Shown here in pieces: positions 35,440 through 56,047 of a DNA stretch of 64,000 bases (position 1 is its first letter; the number at the start of each line of letters is the position of its first letter). The position numbers and the translations under genes were made by a program. The notes below the pieces were generated by a model. It saw only the letters and a program-made list of their open reading frames with translations, was not told the DNA's origin and searched no databases. Source of the stretch: Nitrospirota bacterium (GTDB taxonomy: Bacteria; Nitrospirota; Thermodesulfovibrionia; Thermodesulfovibrionales; Dissulfurispiraceae); the NCBI GenBank assembly GCA_040752355.1, contig JBFMHE010000001.1, forward strand, positions 186,001 to 250,000. The letters run 5' to 3'.

Positions 35440-36426
35440 ATGGAAGATATTCTCTCACAAGATGAAGTCGATGCCCTGCTGAAGGGCATATCCGAAGGTG
35501 AAATAGAGACCGAAAAGCTCGAAGAGACGGCGGGCGTCAAGGTCTACGATTTCACCGGGCAGGAGAAGATCGTCCGGGGGAGGATGCCCTCCCTCGATAT
35601 CGCCAACGAGCGGCTCGCCCGCAACTTCAGGCTCTCCCTGTCTGCGGCAATTCGGCACATGGTCGATGTGACGAACGTCAATGTGAACATAACGAAGTTT
35701 TACGACTTCATGCGCGGCATCCCGTTCCCTTCGAGCATCAACATCTTCAAGATGGAGCCGCTCAGGGGGTTCGGCCTGCTCGTCTTCGATGCGCCGATGA
35801 TCTTCAGCCTGATAGAGTACTTCTTCGGCGGGACCGGCAAAGGATATTACAAGCCGGAGGGCCGGGAGTTTACGCCTATAGAGCAGAAGATCATCCACAA
35901 GGTCGTCCTGATGTTTTTCGATGACATGGAAGAGGCGTGGAAGCCCGTCTATCCGATAAAGCCCGTCTATGTGCGCTCTGAAATGAACCCGCAGTTCGTC
36001 ACTATCGTGACCCCGGTCGATGTGGTCATCAAGGTGGAGTTCGTGCTCGAGATCGAGGGCAAGCAGTGCAAGGCCTTTCTCTGCATCCCCTACGGTTCGG
36101 TGGAGCCCATAAAAGAAAAGCTCTACAGCGCTTTTTCGGCTGACCGCGACGAGCTCGACATCAAGTGGATCGAGCGCTTGAAGGAGGGCCTGAAGGATAT
36201 CCCGGTCACCCTGAGCGGTGAGCTGGGCAGGTCGTCGATAACGGTGAACGACGTGCTGCACATGAACACGGGGGATGTCATCGTGCTCAACTCGCGGGCT
36301 GAGGACGAGCTCAATGTGCTCGTCGAAGGGGTCCCCAAGTTCAGGGCGCGCTTCGGCATATTCAGGGGGACCAAGGCGCTCAAGATCATGAAAGTACTCC
36401 AAACGACCGGCAAGGAAGGGAGATAG
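35440..36426 (+). CDS. fliM: Flagellar motor switch protein FliM
   Basis: The 328-residue C-ring protein that binds CheY-P. The N-terminal CheY-binding peptide is present (EDILSQDEVDALLKGI), followed by the CheC-like middle domain (NERLARNFRLSLSAAIRHMVDV, FGGTGKGYYKPEGREFTPIEQKII) and the C-terminal SpoA domain. The start fits the conserved peptide exactly, although GAGGAG is only three bases away. A four-codon ORF (35424) ends at the TAG just before the ATG. Confidence 0.96.
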   Translation: MEDILSQDEVDALLKGISEGEIETEKLEETAGVKVYDFTGQEKIVRGRMPSLDIANERLARNFRLSLSAAIRHMVDVTNVNVNITKFYDFMRGIPFPSSINIFKMEPLRGFGLLVFDAPMIFSLIEYFFGGTGKGYYKPEGREFTPIEQKIIHKVVLMFFDDMEEAWKPVYPIKPVYVRSEMNPQFVTIVTPVDVVIKVEFVLEIEGKQCKAFLCIPYGSVEPIKEKLYSAFSADRDELDIKWIERLKEGLKDIPVTLSGELGRSSITVNDVLHMNTGDVIVLNSRAEDELNVLVEGVPKFRARFGIFRGTKALKIMKVLQTTGKEGR

Positions 36427-44965: not shown

Positions 44966-46837
44966 GTGGCCAAGAGCATAAAGAGAACCATAGAGAAGCT
45001 CGCAGCGGCCGACCCCTCCGTGCGGAGGGGCGCCGCCGAAGAGCTGGCCGAAGGCGATGAGCGGGCCATCTACCCCCTCGTCCGGGCGCTGAGCGATGCG
45101 AATGCCGGGGTCCAGGACGCCGCCATGAGGGCGCTTATCCGTATAGGCGGCGAGGTGACCGCCTACATGGTGCTTCCGCTCCTGAGGGAGAGCTCCCTGC
45201 TGCGGAACACGGCGCTGATCATCCTGAAAGAGCTCGGCAGGAGCAGCGTCCCGCTGCTGTATCCCCTTCTCAAAGACAAGGACCCCGATATACGGAAGTT
45301 CGCCCTCGATCTGCTGGGCGAAATAAAAGAGGGTGTCGAGCCGGCCCCTATCGTCCCCTACCTGAAGGACCCGAACGCGAACGTCAGGGCCGCAGCCGCG
45401 AAGACCGTAAGCGAGCTCGGATACAAGGCGGCGATCCCGGAGCTCATCAATGCGCTGCATGACGATGAGTGGGTCTGCTTCTCGGCCCTCGAGGCGCTCG
45501 GCGAGCTGAGGGCCGAGAACGCGATCGAGCATATCGCACAACTGCTGCCGTCATCCTCGGCCCATATCCGGAACGCGGTCTCGGATGCGGTGCGGCTTGC
45601 GGTGATCGAGACGCTGGGAAAGCTCGGCTCCGAGAGGTCCATCGGCGTCCTGAGATCCTACCTGCCCAGGACCGATGCCGACGAGCGGTACGCCGTCATC
45701 AAGAGCCTGATTCAGATCGGCATTACGCCCGACATGGCGGACCTCACCGGCTCTATCATCACCATGATCCGGGAGGGGGACTGGGAGGACAGGAAGATCG
45801 CCCTCAGGGGGCTGGCCACGCTGAACTGCAGGGAGGCGGTCCCTCTCCTTGTCGATCTTGCGGGGTCGCTGGACCCCTCCCTGCCCGAGAACGAAGAGCG
45901 GATAGTTGCGGTGCGGGCCGCCATAGGCGCCATGGATGCCGAAGAGGAGCTGCTGAAGCTGCTCGATGCCGCTGACCTCAAATTCCGCGGGAAGCATATC
46001 GCCATCGAGTTGCTGGGAGAGCTGAACAGCAGGAAGGCGGTCCCGCGCCTCATTGAGTACCTCAATGACGTGCGAAGGGATCTCCGGCGCGCCTCATCGC
46101 AGGCGCTGGGCGATATCGGGGCGACGGAATCTATCGAATCGCTCCTCGAGACGTCGCAGCGGGATGCCGATGCCCATGTGCGCCGGTCGGCCATCGAGGC
46201 GCTGGGCACGATACGATCGAAGGATGCCTTCAGACCGCTCCTGGATATGCTCGACCTGGAACGCTACCCGGATGTTATCGAGCGCATTGTCGGAGCGCTC
46301 CTCAAGATCGATGCGCCTGCCTTCCTGTCGAATCTCGCTCGCTACGGCGATACCGTGCGCGAGCTGGTCGCCAAGACCGTGCAGGAGATCGACATCCTCC
46401 TCACCCTCGCCGACGACGGAAACAAGAAGGTCAGGAGCGCCGCCCTCTACGGGCTGGGCCGTGCGGGGACCGACCGGGCGCGCTCCCGGCTTATCGGGTT
46501 CCTGGGGGACCGCGATCCCGAAATACGGAAGGCGGCGGTGGTGGGCCTCGGCGAGGCGCGCTACTGCTCCCCGGAACTGTTCAACGCCCTCATCGACCCC
46601 GACCAGTGGGTCAGGTTCTATGCCGTCAAGGCGGTCGCCTCCTCCTGCGACAGAGAGGAGGCGATCCGGGAGATAAGCGCCCTCTTGCACGATGCGTCCA
46701 TTCCCGTCGTCATGTCCGTAATCGATGCCGTTGCCGCCCTGGGCGGACGGGAAGCGTATGAGACGCTCTCGGCCCACGGGGAGCACCCCAACCCGGATGT
46801 GCGGGATAAGATAAAGGAGGCCCTGGGCTCCCTATGA
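44966..46837 (+). CDS. HEAT-repeat protein of the chemotaxis operon
   Basis: A 623-residue soluble protein made almost wholly of HEAT/PBS-lyase-type repeats: about 15 units of 30-38 residues such as AAAKTVSELGYKAAIPELINALHDDEWVCF, RRASSQALGDIGATESIESLLE and RKAAVVGLGEARYCSPELFNALID. It has no enzymatic motif, signal peptide or membrane segment. The start is GTG with GGGAGG eight bases upstream. It overlaps cheR by four bases and is first in the operon, so it probably serves as a scaffold within the chemosensory apparatus. That role is inference. Confidence 0.85.
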   Translation: MAKSIKRTIEKLAAADPSVRRGAAEELAEGDERAIYPLVRALSDANAGVQDAAMRALIRIGGEVTAYMVLPLLRESSLLRNTALIILKELGRSSVPLLYPLLKDKDPDIRKFALDLLGEIKEGVEPAPIVPYLKDPNANVRAAAAKTVSELGYKAAIPELINALHDDEWVCFSALEALGELRAENAIEHIAQLLPSSSAHIRNAVSDAVRLAVIETLGKLGSERSIGVLRSYLPRTDADERYAVIKSLIQIGITPDMADLTGSIITMIREGDWEDRKIALRGLATLNCREAVPLLVDLAGSLDPSLPENEERIVAVRAAIGAMDAEEELLKLLDAADLKFRGKHIAIELLGELNSRKAVPRLIEYLNDVRRDLRRASSQALGDIGATESIESLLETSQRDADAHVRRSAIEALGTIRSKDAFRPLLDMLDLERYPDVIERIVGALLKIDAPAFLSNLARYGDTVRELVAKTVQEIDILLTLADDGNKKVRSAALYGLGRAGTDRARSRLIGFLGDRDPEIRKAAVVGLGEARYCSPELFNALIDPDQWVRFYAVKAVASSCDREEAIREISALLHDASIPVVMSVIDAVAALGGREAYETLSAHGEHPNPDVRDKIKEALGSL

Positions 46838-47664
46838 TGTCACCGCTCGCCGAGGAGGTCTTCAGGCAGTTCAGGGATTTCATTTACGAGAAGTGCGGGA
46901 TATTCATCCCCGACAACAAGAAATACTTTCTCGAGAACCGCCTGAGCAGAAGGATACAGGAAAAGAATCTCAAGGGGTATGGAGACTACCTCTACAACCT
47001 CAAGTACGACGCGGACAAGAGCGAGCTGTTCAAGCTCTATGACCTGATCACCACGAACGAGACCTTCTTCTTCCGCGAGCCGCAGCAGTTCGACGTGTTC
47101 AGCGGCGAGCTGCTGGACAGGGTCGTCGCGGAAAACGCGCAGTCGGGACGGCGGGAGCTGAAGGTCTGGTCGGCCGCCTCATCGACGGGTGAAGAGGCCT
47201 ATACCGTTGCCATGATGCTGCTCGAGAAGCCCGAGCTCAACGGCATGAGAAAAGAGATACTCGCTTCCGACATCAGCGATCTGGTGCTGCAATCGGCAAA
47301 GACGGCTGTCTACGGGTCTTATTCGGTCAGGAATATTCCCGAGGTGTATCTCAAGAAGTACTTTACGAATACCGACCAGCAGTACGCCCTGGCGGCTCCC
47401 GTCAAGGCGATGGTGAAGTTCATGAGAATGAACCTCATCGACGAGCGGGAGATGAGGACGATGCGGGGCGTCGATGTCATCTTCTGCAGGAATGTCCTGA
47501 TCTATTTCGACGATAAGGCCAAGCAGAAGGCGGTATCGCTGCTCTACGACGCCTTGCGGCCCAACGGGTATCTGATCATCGGCACCTCGGAAAGCCTTCA
47601 CAACATAACGCGCGCTTTCCGGCCCGTGGTTATCAATAAGGTCATCATTTATCAGAAGGTATGA
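46834..47664 (+). CDS. cheR: Chemotaxis protein methyltransferase CheR
   Basis: A 276-residue SAM-dependent glutamate methyltransferase acting on MCPs. It has an N-terminal helical domain (FIYEKCGIFIPDNKKYFLENRLSRRI, TNETFFFREPQQF), SAM-binding segment KVWSAASSTGEEAYTVAMML, and FCRNVLIYFDDKAKQKAVSLLYDALRPNGYLIIGTSESL. Tandem ATGs at 46834 and 46837 are both possible starts; AAGGAGG lies 13-16 bases upstream inside the previous gene. It works against CheB (54983). Confidence 0.96.
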   Translation: MMSPLAEEVFRQFRDFIYEKCGIFIPDNKKYFLENRLSRRIQEKNLKGYGDYLYNLKYDADKSELFKLYDLITTNETFFFREPQQFDVFSGELLDRVVAENAQSGRRELKVWSAASSTGEEAYTVAMMLLEKPELNGMRKEILASDISDLVLQSAKTAVYGSYSVRNIPEVYLKKYFTNTDQQYALAAPVKAMVKFMRMNLIDEREMRTMRGVDVIFCRNVLIYFDDKAKQKAVSLLYDALRPNGYLIIGTSESLHNITRAFRPVVINKVIIYQKV

Positions 47665-47688: not shown

Positions 47689-48078
47689 ATGAAGCTATTG
47701 ATAGTTGACGACGATAAGACGACGCGCAAGCTTCTGAGCCTTTACCTGAAGGGAAAAGGCTACGAGGTCGTCACCGCGGAGAACGGGCTCGACGCCCTGG
47801 AGAAGCTGGGCACCGAGAGCATCAACCTCGTCATAACCGACATGAATATGCCCTACATGGACGGTATCGAGCTGGCTAGGACGCTGCGGGCGGACCCCGC
47901 GTGGAAGGCGATGCCCCTCATCATGGTGACCACCGAGGCAGACGACGATGAACGGAGCAAGGCGTATGAGGCGGGGGTCGACGACTACCTCGTGAAGCCG
48001 ACGAATGCGGACAAGATACACGACAGTATCCGGGGAATTTTCGACAGGATTATTGACGGAGGTGAGAGCAATGTTTAA
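47689..48078 (+). CDS. CheY-like single-domain response regulator (first)
   Basis: A 129-residue receiver-only protein: acidic pocket [14 protein letters not shown], phospho-acceptor Asp in [12 protein letters not shown], Thr in [11 protein letters not shown] and Lys in [10 protein letters not shown]. There is no output domain. It is followed, with an 8-base overlap, by another receiver protein, and both precede cheA. Which of the two binds FliM cannot be decided from sequence. The [17 protein letters not shown] style is common to CheY-type adaptors. Confidence 0.9.
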
Positions 48079-48478
48079 CCTGACCCTGAAAGTGCTGGTA
48101 GTTGACGATTTCCCCACCATGCGGAGAATTGTGAAGAACCTCCTCAAGCAGCTGGGATTCGAGCATATCGATGAGGCTGAAGACGGGTCCCAGGCCCTCA
48201 CCAAATTACGGAGCGGGAATTACGGCCTCGTCGTCTCGGACTGGAACATGCCGAATATGGAGGGAATAGAGCTCCTGCGGAATGTGAGGAAAGAGCCGGA
48301 GCCGCTGCGGGATGTCCCCTTTCTCATGGTAACCGCCGAGGCCGAGAAAGAGAAGGTGATCGAGGCGATCAAGGCGGGCGTCGATAACTACATCGTCAAG
48401 CCCTTTACCGCTGAAATTCTCAAAGAGAAGCTCGAAAAGATAGCAGAAAAGAAGAAATCGCTCAAAGCGGGGGCATGA
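48071..48478 (+). CDS. cheY: Chemotaxis response regulator CheY (second receiver)
   Basis: A 135-residue receiver closely matching canonical Che[42 protein letters not shown], Asp in [57 protein letters not shown]. The start at 48071 is set by GGAGG about ten bases upstream; a longer reading frame into the previous gene lacks an SD. It lies directly before cheA and is the best candidate for switching the motor via FliM and for dephosphorylation by the CheZ domain at 50345. Confidence 0.93.
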
Positions 48479-48479
48479 G

Positions 48480-50312
48480 ATGGCCGACGAGATGGATGAG
48501 ATAATAACCGAGTTCGTAACCGAGGCCGAAGAAACCCTCGAGAAGATCGACCCCCTGTTCGTCGAGCTGGAGGCGAAGGGATACGATAAAAACATGCTGA
48601 ACGAGATCTTCCGCGGCATGCATACGCTCAAGGGGGCCGCGGGGTTTTTAGGGTTCCAGCCGATCGTCGATGTCGCCCACCGCGCGGAGAGTATCATGAA
48701 GAAGCTCCGCGATGCCGAGATCGGGCTCACGCGCGAGCTCATGGATGTCATCCTGAAAAGCGTCGACCACCTGCGTCTGCTCATCTTTCATATCAAGCTC
48801 AAGGACGGCATCGAAGAGGATATCTCTTTGCTGTTGAAAGAGCTCGACGCGGCGCTCCTCTCCTCCGGGGCGTCGGCCCGGGCAGATGCTCCGGGAGCGC
48901 CGGGAGCGCCGGGAGGAGACGGCGGACAGGGAGAGCCTCCCGCCGTCGACGCCGAGGAGAAGGCTGAGATCGAGACCGATGAGCACGAGGCAGGGTCCTC
49001 TCACCCGCAGCCCCCGGCCGAGCCGGAACCCCGGGCCAGGGCTGCGGCCGTTTCCCCCTCCCCCGGACCCTCCTCCGATGAGCAGGTGCAGCAGCTGTCG
49101 AAAGAGCGGGAGGTGGTCTCGACGCTTCGCGTCGATGTTGCGAGGATCGACAAGGTAATGGACCTCGCCGGCGAGATCGTGCTGGCGCGGAACAGGCTTC
49201 TCAACCTGGCGACGAAGCTCGATCTGAGCTACTCCGACGACCCCCATGTCGAGAGCCTCGTCGAGACAACCGGATTCCTGGACAGGGTCACCTCGGACCT
49301 GCAGCTGGCGGTCATGAAGATGAGGATGCAGCCCATCCAGAAGGTCTTCGGGAAGTTCCCCCGCATGGTGCGGGACATGTCGAGGACCCTCGGCAAGGAT
49401 ATCGATCTCGAGATGTTCGGTGAGGATACGGAGGTGGACAAGACGGTCATCGAGAGCATCGGGGACCCCCTTGTCCATATTATAAGGAATTCCATAGACC
49501 ACGGCATCGAGTCCGCTGGAGAGCGTGCGCAGAAGGGGAAGCCCCCGAAGGGGCGGATCATCATGAGCGCCTACCAGAAGGGTACGCATATCGTCATCGA
49601 GGTTTCGGATGACGGGAAGGGCATCGATGTGGAGGCGGTCAAGAGAAAGGCCCTCGCGAGGGGCCTCATCACGGACGAGGAAGCGCAGAAGATGTCGGAC
49701 GACGCCGCGATCAACCTCATCTTTCTTCCCGGGTTTTCGACGAAAGAGATCTCTACCGAGCTCAGCGGCCGCGGCGTCGGCATGGATGTGGTGAAGACCA
49801 ACGTGGCGAAGCTGAACGGGTACGTCGAGGTGATCACGAAAAAGGACGTGGGGAGCACCTTCAAGATCAGTCTCCCCCTGACCCTCGCCATCCTGCAGGC
49901 AATGATGGTCAGGATAGGGAGGGAGTTCTATGCGCTGCCGCAATCGATGATCGAGGAGACGCTCCGAGTGAAGAAGAGCGATATAAAGGATATTACCGGC
50001 CAGAAGGTACTGACCATCCGGGGACGGGTGATCCCCATGTTCGAGCTTGCCGAGGTGCTGGGCGTTGCGATGGACACCGGCGTCGGCCGCGATCACTGTT
50101 ATGTCCTGGTCGCCCTCGTCGGGGACCGGAGGTTCTGCCTCGCCGTAGACGAGCTGCTCGGCCAGGAAGAGATCGTCATCAAAACGATCAACGGGATAGA
50201 GTCCGAGGAGTGCGGCATCCTGGGGGCGACGATCACGGGAGACGGGAGGGTTGTGCTCATCCTCGACTTTGCGGTCCTGTCCAGGAACGTTTTTGCGGGA
50301 GCCGCGAAGTAG
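48480..50312 (+). CDS. cheA: Chemotaxis histidine kinase CheA
   Basis: 610 residues. The P1/HPt domain has phospho-acceptor His48 (FRGMHTLKGAAGFLGF). It is followed by an acidic, Pro/Gly/Ala-rich linker (about 125-205), a P3 dimerisation helix pair (LRVDVARIDKVMDLAGEIVLARNRLLNLA), a P4 ATPase (IIRNSIDHGIESAGER, VSDDGKGID, ELSGRGVGMDVVKTNV) and a P5 CheW-like domain. No P2 CheY/CheB-docking domain is recognisable; the low-complexity linker takes its place. It starts one base after the cheY stop. Confidence 0.96.
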   Translation: MADEMDEIITEFVTEAEETLEKIDPLFVELEAKGYDKNMLNEIFRGMHTLKGAAGFLGFQPIVDVAHRAESIMKKLRDAEIGLTRELMDVILKSVDHLRLLIFHIKLKDGIEEDISLLLKELDAALLSSGASARADAPGAPGAPGGDGGQGEPPAVDAEEKAEIETDEHEAGSSHPQPPAEPEPRARAAAVSPSPGPSSDEQVQQLSKEREVVSTLRVDVARIDKVMDLAGEIVLARNRLLNLATKLDLSYSDDPHVESLVETTGFLDRVTSDLQLAVMKMRMQPIQKVFGKFPRMVRDMSRTLGKDIDLEMFGEDTEVDKTVIESIGDPLVHIIRNSIDHGIESAGERAQKGKPPKGRIIMSAYQKGTHIVIEVSDDGKGIDVEAVKRKALARGLITDEEAQKMSDDAAINLIFLPGFSTKEISTELSGRGVGMDVVKTNVAKLNGYVEVITKKDVGSTFKISLPLTLAILQAMMVRIGREFYALPQSMIEETLRVKKSDIKDITGQKVLTIRGRVIPMFELAEVLGVAMDTGVGRDHCYVLVALVGDRRFCLAVDELLGQEEIVIKTINGIESEECGILGATITGDGRVVLILDFAVLSRNVFAGAAK

Positions 50313-50344: not shown

Positions 50345-51523
50345 ATGCAATATATCGGTTTTACCATGGACACGAATGAGTTTACCATCCCGATCCTCAA
50401 GGTGCAGGAGATAGTGAATCTTCCCCAGCTGACCAGGCTGCCCCAGGTGCCCGACTATATCGAGGGGATAACCAACCTCAGGGGCAAGGTCATCCCCATC
50501 ATAAACCTGAGGCGGCTCGCCGGGATAGCGGGCGATTCGGTGGGGGAAAAGGTCATCGTCATTACCAGCGGACGCATCACCTTCGGCATACTCGTCGACG
50601 GTATCACCGGAGTGATCGCCCTGGACGAGTCGGAGATCGAGCCGCCCACGGACTTCAATACGTCCGCTATCGTTTCCGGCGTCGCCAGAGTAGACGACCG
50701 GCTCGTGGTGCTCCTCGATACGAAAAAGCTCATTCCCATGGAAGACGTGAGTATTTTTGAAGACGAGATATTCGAAGTGAAAGACAACGGCGACCAGGTC
50801 GAGGTGGTGAAGAGGATAGAGGGAATAGGCGGGGATATGATCGTCAAGGAGGTCCTCGACGCAAAGCACTTCTTCCAGAGGCGGGGGATCGATACCCAGG
50901 ACCCGCGCTATGCCCTCTTCGACGAGATGATCGCCTTCATGAATGCGGTGAATAACCAGGAATACGAAAAGGCCGACGAGGCCATTCAGAATATCCTGAA
51001 GAAAGGCCAGAACGACCTGTTCCAGGAGGTCGGCAAGGTGACCCGGAAGCTGCACGACGCGATCAGGAGCTTCAAGGAGGCCCTCGACCCCAAGCTCAAG
51101 GATATGGCCACCACCGAAATGCCCAATGCCGTCGACAAGCTGCAGTTCGTCATCGAAAAGACGGAAGAGGCCGCCAACAAGACGATGGGGATCGTCGAAA
51201 AATACATATTGAGCATGGACGACCTCGCAGCGCATATACGGAGCCTGAAAGAGCCGGAAGAGTCGGTGAGCTATCTGAGGGAGTTCAAGAAGAGCCTCGA
51301 GGACGACCTCACCGAGATCCTGACGACGCAATCGTTTCAGGATTTGACGGGGCAGTCGATAAAGAAGGTAATCAAGCTCGTCGGCGATGTCGAGGAGGAG
51401 CTGGTGAAGATGATCACGACCTTCGGCGTCAAGATGGAGCAGGGGACGCCGAGCGAGAGCGTGGAGCATGAACAGATCGGCCAGTCCGACGTCGATGACC
51501 TGCTCAAGGAGTTCGGATTCTGA
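50345..51523 (+). CDS. cheW: CheW-CheZ fusion protein (coupling protein joined to CheY-P phosphatase)
   Basis: 392 residues. The first 140 form a CheW domain (FTIPILKVQEIVNLPQLTRLPQVPDYIEGITNLRGKVIPIINLRRL, ITSGRITFGILVDGITGVI, VVLLDTKKLI). The rest is a long helical CheZ-like part containing ILTTQSFQDLTGQSIKKVI, where Asp333 and Gln337 correspond to the catalytic Asp and Gln of E. coli CheZ (DLTGQ), and ending in SDVDDLLKEFGF, the CheY-binding tail. AAGGAGG precedes the ATG. No separate cheW or cheZ exists in the window. Confidence 0.9.
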   Translation: MQYIGFTMDTNEFTIPILKVQEIVNLPQLTRLPQVPDYIEGITNLRGKVIPIINLRRLAGIAGDSVGEKVIVITSGRITFGILVDGITGVIALDESEIEPPTDFNTSAIVSGVARVDDRLVVLLDTKKLIPMEDVSIFEDEIFEVKDNGDQVEVVKRIEGIGGDMIVKEVLDAKHFFQRRGIDTQDPRYALFDEMIAFMNAVNNQEYEKADEAIQNILKKGQNDLFQEVGKVTRKLHDAIRSFKEALDPKLKDMATTEMPNAVDKLQFVIEKTEEAANKTMGIVEKYILSMDDLAAHIRSLKEPEESVSYLREFKKSLEDDLTEILTTQSFQDLTGQSIKKVIKLVGDVEEELVKMITTFGVKMEQGTPSESVEHEQIGQSDVDDLLKEFGF

Positions 51524-51589: not shown

Positions 51590-52354
51590 ATGAAGACGGT
51601 AGGAAAGATTCTGGGGGTAGCAGCGCTGTTCATGCTGGTATGGGCGCTGAATGCGTACGCGAGCGAGATCAAGGTAGGGGCGGGAGCAGCGCCGACCGAA
51701 AATGTACTGAAGCCGATCAAGGAGCCCTTCGAAAAGGCCACGGGGCTGAAGCTCACGATCATCGCCTCGGGCCCGAAGATCGCGCTCCAGGACCTCGAAA
51801 AAGGGGCTGTCGATGCCGCGGCTGCCGGGCTGAGCTTCGATGACTGGATGGCGCTCATGAAAAAAGAGGGCGTCGAGGTGAGGGATGCCGGGGGATTCCA
51901 GCAGGCGCTTATCGGAAAGGACAAGATCGTTACTCTCGTACATAAAGAAAACACCGTGGCAAAACTCTCAAAAGACCAGCTCAAGGGAATTTTCACCGGG
52001 AAGATAACGAACTGGAAAGAGGTGGGGGGAAAGGATGCCCCGATCATCGTGGTATGGGGCAAGCTGATCCCGGGCACCAACAGCATGTATACAAAGCATA
52101 TATTCGATGGAGAACCGGTGACGAAGGATATCCTCGACGCCACGACCGCCGAGGATGTGCGGCAGAACGTCGCCGCGAACCCCGAAGCGGTCGGCATCGG
52201 CCCGATGGCGGTCATCGATGCATCGGTGAGGTCGCCCGAGACGCCGGAGGTCGCGCGGCCTATCACCTTGCTCACCAAGGGGAATCCCGCTCCGAACATC
52301 CAGAAGCTCCTCGACTTCATAAAGGGTGAGGGGCAGAAGTATATCAAGCAGTAG
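51590..52354 (+). CDS. Periplasmic substrate-binding protein (PstS/PBP-like)
   Basis: A 254-residue exported protein with a signal peptide (ILGVAALFMLVWALNAYAS, cleavage near residue 25) and a type II periplasmic-binding fold of the phosphate/molybdate family (IKVGAGAAPTENVLKPI, LSKDQLKGIFTGKITNWKEVGG, GTNSMYTKHIFDG, VGIGPMAVID). AAGGAGGGG precedes the ATG. There is no ABC permease or ATPase nearby, and an MCP gene follows, so a ligand-presenting chemoreceptor partner is more likely than transport. The ligand is unknown. Confidence 0.8.
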   Translation: MKTVGKILGVAALFMLVWALNAYASEIKVGAGAAPTENVLKPIKEPFEKATGLKLTIIASGPKIALQDLEKGAVDAAAAGLSFDDWMALMKKEGVEVRDAGGFQQALIGKDKIVTLVHKENTVAKLSKDQLKGIFTGKITNWKEVGGKDAPIIVVWGKLIPGTNSMYTKHIFDGEPVTKDILDATTAEDVRQNVAANPEAVGIGPMAVIDASVRSPETPEVARPITLLTKGNPAPNIQKLLDFIKGEGQKYIKQ

Positions 52355-52473: not shown

Positions 52474-54972
52474 ATGACCATAAAAACAAAACTGACACTC
52501 AATGTCGTTATCGTAACGGTGATTGTCGCGGCCGTTGCGGTAACGAGTTTTATAGGAATGGGATCCGTCAGGAGCAAGCTCCATTACCTTACCGAGCGCA
52601 GTACCCCATTCCAGATGAGGACGGTAGAGTTCCAGAGGGTTATACAGGGGGCGACGGCAGACTTTACTAAAGTAGGCGTGTCAAGAACAAGAGAGGAGTA
52701 CAAAACCTGTCGTGCAGAGGCCGAAAAGTCTCTTGCGGAGGTGAGAAAGACCCAGGGAGCGCTCGAGGCGCTTGCCGGCGATGCCAGGATGGAGACCGCC
52801 GATGAGCTCGGCAGGGTTGCGCAGGAGCTGTTTACTATCACCGAGGGAAGACTGAAAGCCGAAGAGGAGGCCCTGGCTGCAGCTGCCACGATTGCCCAGA
52901 GGCTCAAGGAGACATCACAGCGGCTGAGAGAGCTGGATTCCAAGATCAAGGGTCTTCAGCTGAACCGCTCGGCGGCGTTTGTCACCTCGCTGGAAGATAC
53001 GAAAGGCATTTCTTCAAAGCTGCGGAACATAGAGACCCTGAAGGTCATCCTCAAGGACCTGCAGCTCGCGATATTCGAGATACAGCGGGCCGCGGACAAG
53101 AAAGCCCTCATCATCGCCAGGGGCAAGGCCAATGCCGCCGCGAGCAAGGCGTTCCAGAGCGATTATCTCAAGGACTGGATATCGAGGAACTTCTATTCCG
53201 ATATAAAAGCGCTCACCGAGAAAGTCGAGGAGCTGGTAACGATACAGACCGCTCTCATGTCCCCTGCCGCTCCTGTCCCCGGGCAGCCGCTCCAGGCGAA
53301 TGACGAAGCAAGAAAGAAGTTCGAGGCGGCCGGCAGCGAGGTCAGCGAGCGGCTTTCGGCAATCATGCTCGCCGTCGAGCAGGAGGTGCTGCTGGCAAGC
53401 GACAAGTACGGGGTCGAGACCGGGAGGCAAGGGGATGTCTTTACCCAGTCGAACATCGCAAACAGCGTATTGACGAGCAACTCCGAGCTGGTGGCCCTCG
53501 GCCTGTCGGCCGAAGGGCTGTCTACGAAACTCTTCACGCTTACGTCCGTTAAGGACGTCGATACGGTAAGCGCCGAGCTCGGGAAGGTCTTCGAGAGGGT
53601 AGGGAATGTCGAAAAGAATCTCGAGAGGGCGCTCCTGAAGCTCAATGCGAAAGAGGAGATGAAGCTGCTTAGCAGCGCCGAAGCTGCGCTCAATGCCGTA
53701 CGCGGGACGCTGTTCGCCCAGGACGGCATTGTCGCGAAGATCCGCCATCAGCTCAGTATGAATGAAAAGGCGCTGCAGGCGATGGCGCGGCTCAGGGAGA
53801 TCGTTGTCAGGCAGGCAGAAAAAGGGAAACAGACGGTGTCCACAGCCCAGGGAGAACAGGAGAAGGCGATCGGCACGGTCAACAGGATGGTCCATTTCAG
53901 CATGGGGCTCATCGGCGCCATCAGCCTCGGTGCGATCGTGTTCGGTATTCTCTTCGGCATATGGGTCTACCGCTCCATTGCCAACCCCCTGGCGCAGCTG
54001 ATCACGGTCTCTGACAAGGTTGCGCAGGGGGATCTCGCCGTCGGCCTGAAGACGACGGCCCGGGACGAGATCGGCATGGTGCAGACCTCCATGGGGAAGA
54101 TGGTGGACAACCTGAGGAATATTGTCGGGAAGATACGCACTGCCACGGGCAGCCTTGCGAGCAGCTCCGAGGAGCTGTCGGCTACCGCCGTAACGCTCGA
54201 GAAGGGGTCGCAGGACCAGGCCTTGCAGGTCGAGCAGTCGGCAACGGCGATGACCGAGATGTCGCAGACGACCCTCGATGTTGCGAAGAACGCCGCCGAC
54301 ACCTCCGGTGCTGCGCAGAAGATGAAGACCACGGCGATGCAGGGCAAAGAGGCGATGCATACGACCGTCCAGGAGCTGACGAAGTTCGCCGAGACCGTGA
54401 AGGAGTCGGCGGTCAAGGTCGAGTCGCTCGGCAGGAAGTCGGAAGAGATCAACGACATCGTCACGCTCATCAAGGAGATTGCCGACCAGACGAACCTGCT
54501 CGCCCTCAATGCGGCCATCGAGGCAGCCAGGGCGGGAGAGCAGGGGAGGGGGTTCGCGGTCGTTGCCGACAGCGTCAGGCAGCTCGCCGAGCGGACGACG
54601 GTGGCCGCAAACGATATCGCGAGCACGGTCCATACCATGCAGAGCGAAGTTGCCGACTCGGTAACCTTCATGAAAGAAGAGCGGGACTCGGTCGGTAAAG
54701 TGCTCGACCACGTCAACAGCACACTGAAGTCGATCGACGATATCGTGGCGTACGTAGAAGGGGTTGCGGATATGGTGCAGAGGATTGCGGCCGCCACCGA
54801 AGAGCAGTCGTCGGCTTCGGAAGAGGTCTCGCACAACATGGAAACCATCGCCGTTATCACGAGGCAGTTGAGCAGCTCGATATCCGAGATCAAGCGCGCC
54901 TCGGGCGATCTCTCCCATCTCGCGACCGAATTGAACGGCACGGCGAGCTGGTTTAAAGTGCAGGAGCGTTAA
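52474..54972 (+). CDS. Methyl-accepting chemotaxis protein
   Basis: An 832-residue transmembrane receptor. TM1 lies at about 7-29 ([20 protein letters not shown]). A very long, helical periplasmic domain (about 30-472) follows, then TM2 at about 474-500 ([23 protein letters not shown]), a HAMP domain ([21 protein letters not shown]) and a signalling domain. The hairpin tip lies near residue 670 ([42 protein letters not shown]). The C-terminus ([10 protein letters not shown]) lacks a CheR-docking pentapeptide. It sits beside the binding protein at 51590, a likely ligand partner. Confidence 0.95.
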
Positions 54973-54982
54973 GAGAGGTCCC

Positions 54983-56047
54983 GTGATCGTAAAGGTGCTT
55001 ATCGTAGACGATTCCGCTTTCATGAGGAATGCATTGACCGCTATGCTTTCCTCCGACCCGGAAATAAAGATCGTCGGTACCGCGCGGGACGGCCTCGAGG
55101 CGATCGAAAAGGTGCAGAGCCTCAAGCCCGACATCGTCACGATGGATGTCGAAATGCCGCGGATGGACGGCATCGAGGCGCTCCGGCATATCATGGGGAC
55201 GAATCCTCTGCCGGTCATCATGGTCAGCTCCATCACGACCGAGGGCGCAAAAGTCACTCTCGATGCCCTCGACCTGGGCGCCGTCGACTTCATTCCTAAA
55301 AATCTCTCTGAGCTCTCCGTCAATATCGTCAAGATAAAAGAGATTCTCATAGACAAGATAAAGCATATGGGGCGGAGAGGCATCGCCAGTAAAGGGGCAC
55401 GGCCGACGCTGCGCCGCCCTGTCATGAAGAGCGTTGAGCCGGTGGAGCAGATGCCGGCCAGGACCACGGGAGAGCGCAGGATCGGCATCGTCTCTATCGG
55501 GACGTCGACAGGGGGGCCCAAGGCGCTGCAGGAGATCATTCCCAGGCTCCCGAAGGATTTCCCTGTCCCCATCGTCATCGCCCAGCACATGCCGCCGAAT
55601 TTCACCGCACCCTTCGCCGAGCGGCTCGACCAGCTGAGCCGGATCAGGGTAAAGGAGGCGGAAGAGGGGGAGGTCGTAAGACCCGGCGTCGCCCTCGTCG
55701 CCCCCGGCCGCGGGCATATGAGAGTGGCGAGGAGGAGGTCCCTCGAGACGGTGGTGACGATCTCGGAAAATAAAGACGACTTCATCTACAGGCCCTCCGT
55801 TGATGCGCTGATGTTCTCTATTGCCGAGTTCTTTCCCGGCCGGGCCCTCGGCGTGATCCTGACGGGAATGGGAAACGACGGGTGCAAGGGACTGGCAGCC
55901 CTGAAAAAGACGGGAGGAAGGATATTCGCACAGAACGAGGAGACCTGTGTCGTCTACGGCATGCCGAAGGCAGTGGTTGATGCGGGGATCGCGGATAAAG
56001 TATTATCTCTTGACGAGATCGCAGGTGAAATCGTCAATTCGGTTTAG
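54983..56047 (+). CDS. cheB: Chemotaxis methylesterase CheB
   Basis: 354 residues. The receiver has its phospho-acceptor Asp in VTMDVEMPRMDG. The CheB esterase/deamidase domain has Ser in SIGTSTGGPKALQEII, His in VIAQHMPPNFTAPFAERL and Asp in LTGMGNDGCKGL. It removes methyl groups added by CheR and can deamidate MCP glutamines. The start is GTG with AGAGG about six bases upstream; no ATG fits the receiver start (KVLIVDDSAFMRNAL). It is 11 bases after the MCP gene. Confidence 0.96.
   Translation: MIVKVLIVDDSAFMRNALTAMLSSDPEIKIVGTARDGLEAIEKVQSLKPDIVTMDVEMPRMDGIEALRHIMGTNPLPVIMVSSITTEGAKVTLDALDLGAVDFIPKNLSELSVNIVKIKEILIDKIKHMGRRGIASKGARPTLRRPVMKSVEPVEQMPARTTGERRIGIVSIGTSTGGPKALQEIIPRLPKDFPVPIVIAQHMPPNFTAPFAERLDQLSRIRVKEAEEGEVVRPGVALVAPGRGHMRVARRRSLETVVTISENKDDFIYRPSVDALMFSIAEFFPGRALGVILTGMGNDGCKGLAALKKTGGRIFAQNEETCVVYGMPKAVVDAGIADKVLSLDEIAGEIVNSV

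Follow-up and report, generated by a model that had tools for sequence, protein, structure and literature searches.

In E. coli, the phosphatase CheZ joins the chemoreceptor array through an aromatic hairpin tip that binds short CheA (PMC7750401). The window analysed here, a stretch of 64,000 nucleotides from a Nitrospirota genome, raises the question of whether a CheY-P phosphatase can also be placed at the array by being built into an array protein. Its chemotaxis operon contains a gene that encodes both the adaptor CheW and CheZ.

Genomic context and domain architecture

The operon has the order HEAT-repeat protein, cheR, response regulator, cheY, cheA, cheW::cheZ, periplasmic-binding-protein-like gene, chemoreceptor, cheB (Table 1), and the order HEAT-cheR-RR-cheY-cheA-[cheW::cheZ]-cheB is conserved in relatives. 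A flagellar block comprising fliM, fliN, fliR, flhB, flhA, flhF, a MinD-like gene and a flagellar-type sigma factor directly precedes it; the names of the last genes in this block are taken from Pfam domains and gene order. The HEAT-repeat protein, first in the operon, is kept in almost all relatives of both fusion groups described below. The periplasmic-binding-protein-like gene, located between the fusion and the chemoreceptor, occurs in many relatives, not all, and its product is a possible sensing partner of the adjoining chemoreceptor.

Table 1. Coordinates of the fusion gene, its domains and neighbouring genes within the window
Feature	Coordinates	Strand	Evidence
cheW::cheZ fusion gene, 392 aa	50345..51523	+	single uninterrupted ORF, ATG 50345 to TGA 51523; Pfam CheW and CheZ
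CheW domain, residues 2-131	50348..50737	+	PF01584; model match to CheW 2qdl; conserved residues
Linker, residues 136-217, predicted beta-hairpin and helices, low confidence	50750..50995	+	AlphaFold2 model
CheZ domain, residues ~218-392	50996..51520	+	PF04344; HMM envelope; 1kmi_Z E 1.9e-10
Predicted helical hairpin of CheZ, residues 249-299 and 305-360, with shortened tip	51089..51424	+	model; alignment
Catalytic motif DLTGQ (D333, Q337)	51341..51355	+	D and Q invariant in all CheZ rows
C-terminal CheY-binding tail QSDVDDLLKEFGF, residues 380-392	51482..51520	+	conserved with E. coli SQDQVDDLLDSLGF
fliM, flagellar switch, within linked flagellar block	35440..36426	+	
HEAT-repeat protein	44966..46837		
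cheR	46834..47664	+	Pfam
Second single-domain response regulator	47689..48078	+	Pfam; operon position conserved in relatives
cheY, likely substrate	48071..48478	+	Pfam; 62% identical to E. coli CheY
cheA: Hpt, dimerisation, ATPase and CheW-like P5 domains	48480..50312	+	Pfam
Periplasmic-binding-protein-like gene	51590..52354		PF12849
Chemoreceptor, HAMP and MCP signalling domain	52474..54972	+	Pfam
cheB	54983..56047	+	Pfam

The fusion gene follows cheA at a distance of about 33 nt, and an AGGAGG-like ribosome-binding site lies shortly before its ATG. Its product is a genuine two-domain protein of CheW and CheZ. The sequence-only reading had described a complete CheW domain joined to a CheZ part and had made this depend on the C-terminal region aligning with a CheZ profile. 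It does align, and both Pfam families score well above their cut-offs: CheW (PF01584) spans residues 2-131 at 117.6 bits against a cut-off of 23.5 (E 4e-34), and CheZ (PF04344) matches in two stretches at 124.6 bits against 30.7 (E 6e-36). NCBIfam finds the same two families with scores below the equivalog cut-offs. A sequence search of the PDB recovers CheW structures at E 6.5e-22 and, as the sole CheZ match, E. coli CheZ 1kmi at E 2.1e-9. Pfam gives no match to a receiver domain within the protein, which thus lacks the architecture of CheV.

Structural modelling adds detail to both halves. The modelled CheW domain matches CheW 2qdl with a Z score of 20.7 and 1.7 A over 139 residues. In the CheZ half, AlphaFold2 predicts a long helical hairpin, in a model with an overall pLDDT of 69 and pTM of 0.36 and with a linker below 50. 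A structure search with the hairpin returns no CheZ entry, with 1kmi absent from the match list, so the identity of the hairpin as CheZ rests on sequence profiles.

Distribution and evolutionary history

The architecture is widespread in the class to which the window belongs, Thermodesulfovibrionia. Searching for it across genomes, as had been proposed for this locus, recovers the full two-domain protein in 60 genomes of the class and in one Nitrospirota genome outside it, from a sample of 295 Nitrospirota genomes. CheZ is detected above the Pfam cut-off in 62 genomes of the class, and only G180, where it lies in a 387-aa frame with no detectable CheW, and G287, where a 62-aa frame holds just a fragment, depart from the fused form. 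The fusion is therefore the usual form of CheZ across this class related to Thermodesulfovibrio. In genomes outside the class, CheZ is mostly a standalone protein, of about 200-225 aa in family f27.

A chance read-through, or an assembly join of two genes, could in principle create such a frame, and one relative does carry an in-frame stop in the linker. However, an unbroken frame is seen in 60 genomes of the class, which represent many assemblies, several closed ones among them. The linker is also near-constant, its length ranging only from 81 to 87 aa in all but one of 36 group A rows. Recurrence on this scale refutes an artefact, and we regard its probability as negligible.

The fusions fall into two groups: group A, which includes the window's protein and in which cheA precedes the fusion, and group B, mostly arranged as cheY-fusion-cheA. 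Family f20 also contains more distant fusions (L147-149), as do two genomes (L165 and L166) in a sample of another phylum. Copies of the same fusion in MAGs named Methylococcaceae (L071) and Desulfuromonas (L077), which share similar isolate names (MnB_9 and MnB_14), most likely lie on misbinned contigs. In family f28, L150 (6625-7665, minus strand) encodes a CheZ with a degenerate CheW-like N-terminus that scores 22.6 bits for PF01584, just below the cut-off, and is perhaps a decayed fusion. Loci L079-L084 and L092, which 1.7-kb matches had presented as separate cheW and cheZ genes, are full fusions with an extra standalone cheW on their 3' side.

Phylogenetic analyses suggest that some relatives have lost the CheW domain again. 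In the CheZ tree, the standalone proteins L086/L088/L089, L090 and L172 nest inside the fusion groups, and the AU test rejects a tree that excludes them from a clade of fusions (p 3.5e-9). Three of these proteins (L086, L088 and L089) retain the linker, and L088 has 61% identity from residue 144 on. This nesting, together with the retained linkers, points to the CheW domain having been lost secondarily, and tethering would thus not be indispensable. The trees also suggest independent origins for L147-149, L165 and L166, but the case is not clear-cut: when the nested standalone proteins may join the clade, AU tests do not reject a single origin (p 0.26 and 0.14 on the CheW tree, 0.09 on the CheZ tree). 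The distant fusions are compatible with one origin as well as with several.

Two further observations concern individual relatives. L086 and L089 have identical CheZ domains in MAGs named Thermodesulfovibrionales and Desulfobacterales, reflecting either misbinning or very recent transfer. The single in-frame stop noted above (L064:8517-8519) divides the fusion into separate CheW and CheZ frames and reflects either a genuine division of the gene or an error in sequencing.

A proposed array-tethered phosphatase

We consider it probable, at roughly 0.8, that the protein is a two-headed adaptor whose CheW domain sits in the array while a linker-borne CheZ dimer hydrolyses CheY-P beside the kinase. 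The CheW domain would take up one of the CheW positions of the array formed by receptors and CheA. On its linker of about 80 residues, the CheZ domain is predicted to dimerise into a shortened four-helix bundle, whose C-terminal tail would capture CheY-P so that D333 and Q337 could hydrolyse the phosphate. Such a protein would hard-wire a CheY-P phosphatase to the flagellar-chemotaxis kinase array, as a covalent counterpart of short CheA.

The CheW half carries the residues expected for this role. V20, E22, I23, G41, R46, G81, D85, V90 and G112 are conserved in the fusion as in standalone CheW, and the positions that are near-invariant in standalone CheW (E. coli V36, E38, G57, R62, G99, D103, V108 and G133) are kept in the fusions. 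Equivalents of V36, E38, G57, R62 and V108, which we take to be the CheA- and receptor-contact residues of E. coli CheW, are conserved across groups A and B. At the same time, the fused CheW domains form a lineage separate from standalone CheW, with fixed differences at P16, G89 and G5. This separation lends some weight to another arrangement, in which the CheW domain stays outside the P5/CheW rings and, by binding receptors or CheA, acts only as a tag for docking the phosphatase, for instance on a subset of receptors; receptor-biased adaptors have a precedent in CheV (PMC4742279). Retention of the invariant standalone-CheW residues, including the NLRG arginine, argues against this arrangement, which we consider possible but doubtful.

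How the fusion might share the array with other adaptors can be judged from the CheW complement of the genome. The sequence-only reading noted that no separate cheW or cheZ is present in the window. This holds for the window, and for CheZ it extends to the entire 3.57-Mb genome, where a genome-wide search finds the fusion as the only CheZ and finds no CheX. It does not extend to CheW: the genome has 11 CheW-domain stretches, including several standalone CheW genes on other contigs and a CheW-receiver (CheV-like) protein, L009. In all 10 related genomes checked, several of them closed single-contig assemblies, at least one canonical standalone CheW accompanies the fusion, and in many relatives it lies within the fusion's operon. 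The CheW on contig 14 of the window's genome groups in the tree with these operon-located proteins. Given this orthologous standalone CheW on another contig, the fusion probably works beside standalone CheW as an extra adaptor, like CheV, and not as its replacement. The opposite view, that the fusion is the array's principal or sole CheW and places a phosphatase at every CheW position, draws on the absence of a standalone cheW from the window, the position of the fusion after cheA and the retention of universally conserved CheW residues. The canonical CheW in 10 of 10 relatives, and the membership of the contig 14 protein in the clade found in relatives' operons, make it improbable.

The CheZ half appears equipped for catalysis. 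D333 and Q337, equivalent to E. coli D143 and Q147, are invariant in every CheZ row aligned, and the DLTGQ motif lies at residues 333-337, which confirms the numbering first proposed for the two residues. The C-terminal tail VDDLLKEFGF, likewise recognised at the outset, aligns with E. coli VDDLLDSLGF and is retained in all fusion groups, apart from L165, which is cut off, and L166, which ends differently. The likely substrate is the operon's cheY product, as it resembles E. coli CheY (62% identity). The operon's second response regulator is conserved in position, and the CheZ half might act on it instead; alternatively, the CheW-tethered dimer might be mainly structural. Both ideas are very unlikely, since the second regulator is only 43% identical to E. 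coli CheY, against 62%, and the catalytic residues and CheY-binding tail are conserved.

The predicted hairpin of the CheZ half is shorter than that of E. coli CheZ. The segment matching E. coli residues 60-143 has 83 residues in E. coli and seven gammaproteobacteria, 71-73 in group B and 62 in 48 of 48 group A rows of the alignment. The aromatic tip (E. coli W94/W97/F98 region) is a gap in all 48 group A rows, and in the alignment the other fusions have no matching aromatics at W97/F98. The CheZ profile match is split in two because about 21 hairpin-tip residues are missing. Pfam detects no recognisable P2 domain in the operon's CheA, while a control with E. coli CheA gives PF09078. With the tip absent in every fusion and no P2 recognised in this CheA, the earlier proposal that the phosphatase is tethered covalently, and not through short CheA, appears strengthened. 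Loss of the tip is not specific to fusions, as the aligned Desulfobacterota CheZ rows likewise lack it, and a passage in PMC7750401, citing Wuichet 2007, describes alpha- and delta-proteobacterial CheZ as also without short-CheA-binding sequences. The absence of the tip therefore fits covalent tethering but does not prove that the fusion replaced short-CheA binding.

Other unusual CheZ proteins occur in the Desulfobacterota sample. Four CheZ proteins of 397-683 aa (L169:4970-6580; L170:6960-9008, minus strand; L171:1343-3277, minus strand; L173:1892-3082) match the CheZ profile in two segments with a long stretch between them, resembling an inserted domain or extended coiled coil at the hairpin tip, which is the short-CheA-binding site of E. 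coli CheZ. A further CheZ type of 430-540 aa (L154-L164) also occurs there, with two such genes in each of four sampled genomes, and its N-terminal ~230-300 residues show no Pfam family over cut-off in the three proteins scanned.

As CheZ acts as a dimer, each bundle of the proposed two-headed adaptor would join two CheW units of the array. A stronger version, in which each dimer ties two CheW units and the state of the array switches the phosphatase or sets the dimer geometry, seems unlikely. If true, one protein would both cross-link the array structurally and act as a phosphatase under array control, and the same lattice would govern kinase and phosphatase.

Comparison with known systems

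The purpose of CheZ localisation to the array is still debated. According to the account of Vaknin and Berg given in PMC2673030, array-bound CheZ sharpens the response in E. coli, and its shift to the cytoplasm blunts it. The open-access papers searched contain no description of a CheW-CheZ fusion, and none mentions CheZ and CheW together with Thermodesulfovibrio or Nitrospirota, though an earlier mention in a census table is possible. The CheW fusion would add to the modes by which a CheY-P phosphatase is placed, alongside short CheA, ChePep and the CheA-CheC/CheX fusion. A whole class appears to have fixed this placement in the gene, and some descendants seem to have reversed it, offering natural paired cases in which to study the benefit of an array-bound phosphatase.

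Like E. coli CheZ (1kmi, PF04344), the fusion has the catalytic D/Q pair, a predicted hairpin and the C-terminal CheY-binding tail. The E. coli protein, however, stands alone at 214 aa, and its longer hairpin ends in the short-CheA-binding aromatic tip that the fusion lacks. It shares the complete fold and conserved residues of CheW (PF01584; 2qdl, 2ho9), but differs in its C-terminal phosphatase and in belonging to a lineage apart from the standalone CheW of the same genomes. The nearest precedent for such use of CheW is CheV, which fuses CheW to a receiver and works alongside CheW (PMC4742279). In both, a CheW domain would put a second CheY-related activity at the array beside standalone CheW; in CheV this is a receiver domain, a proposed phosphate sink, and in the fusion a CheY-P phosphatase domain. 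For covalent attachment of a phosphatase, the closest precedent is the CheA-CheC/CheX fusion of Leptospirae-class spirochaetes (PMC10782961). There, too, a CheY-P phosphatase is carried covalently on an array component, but it belongs to an unrelated phosphatase family and is joined to the kinase, whereas here CheZ is joined to the adaptor.
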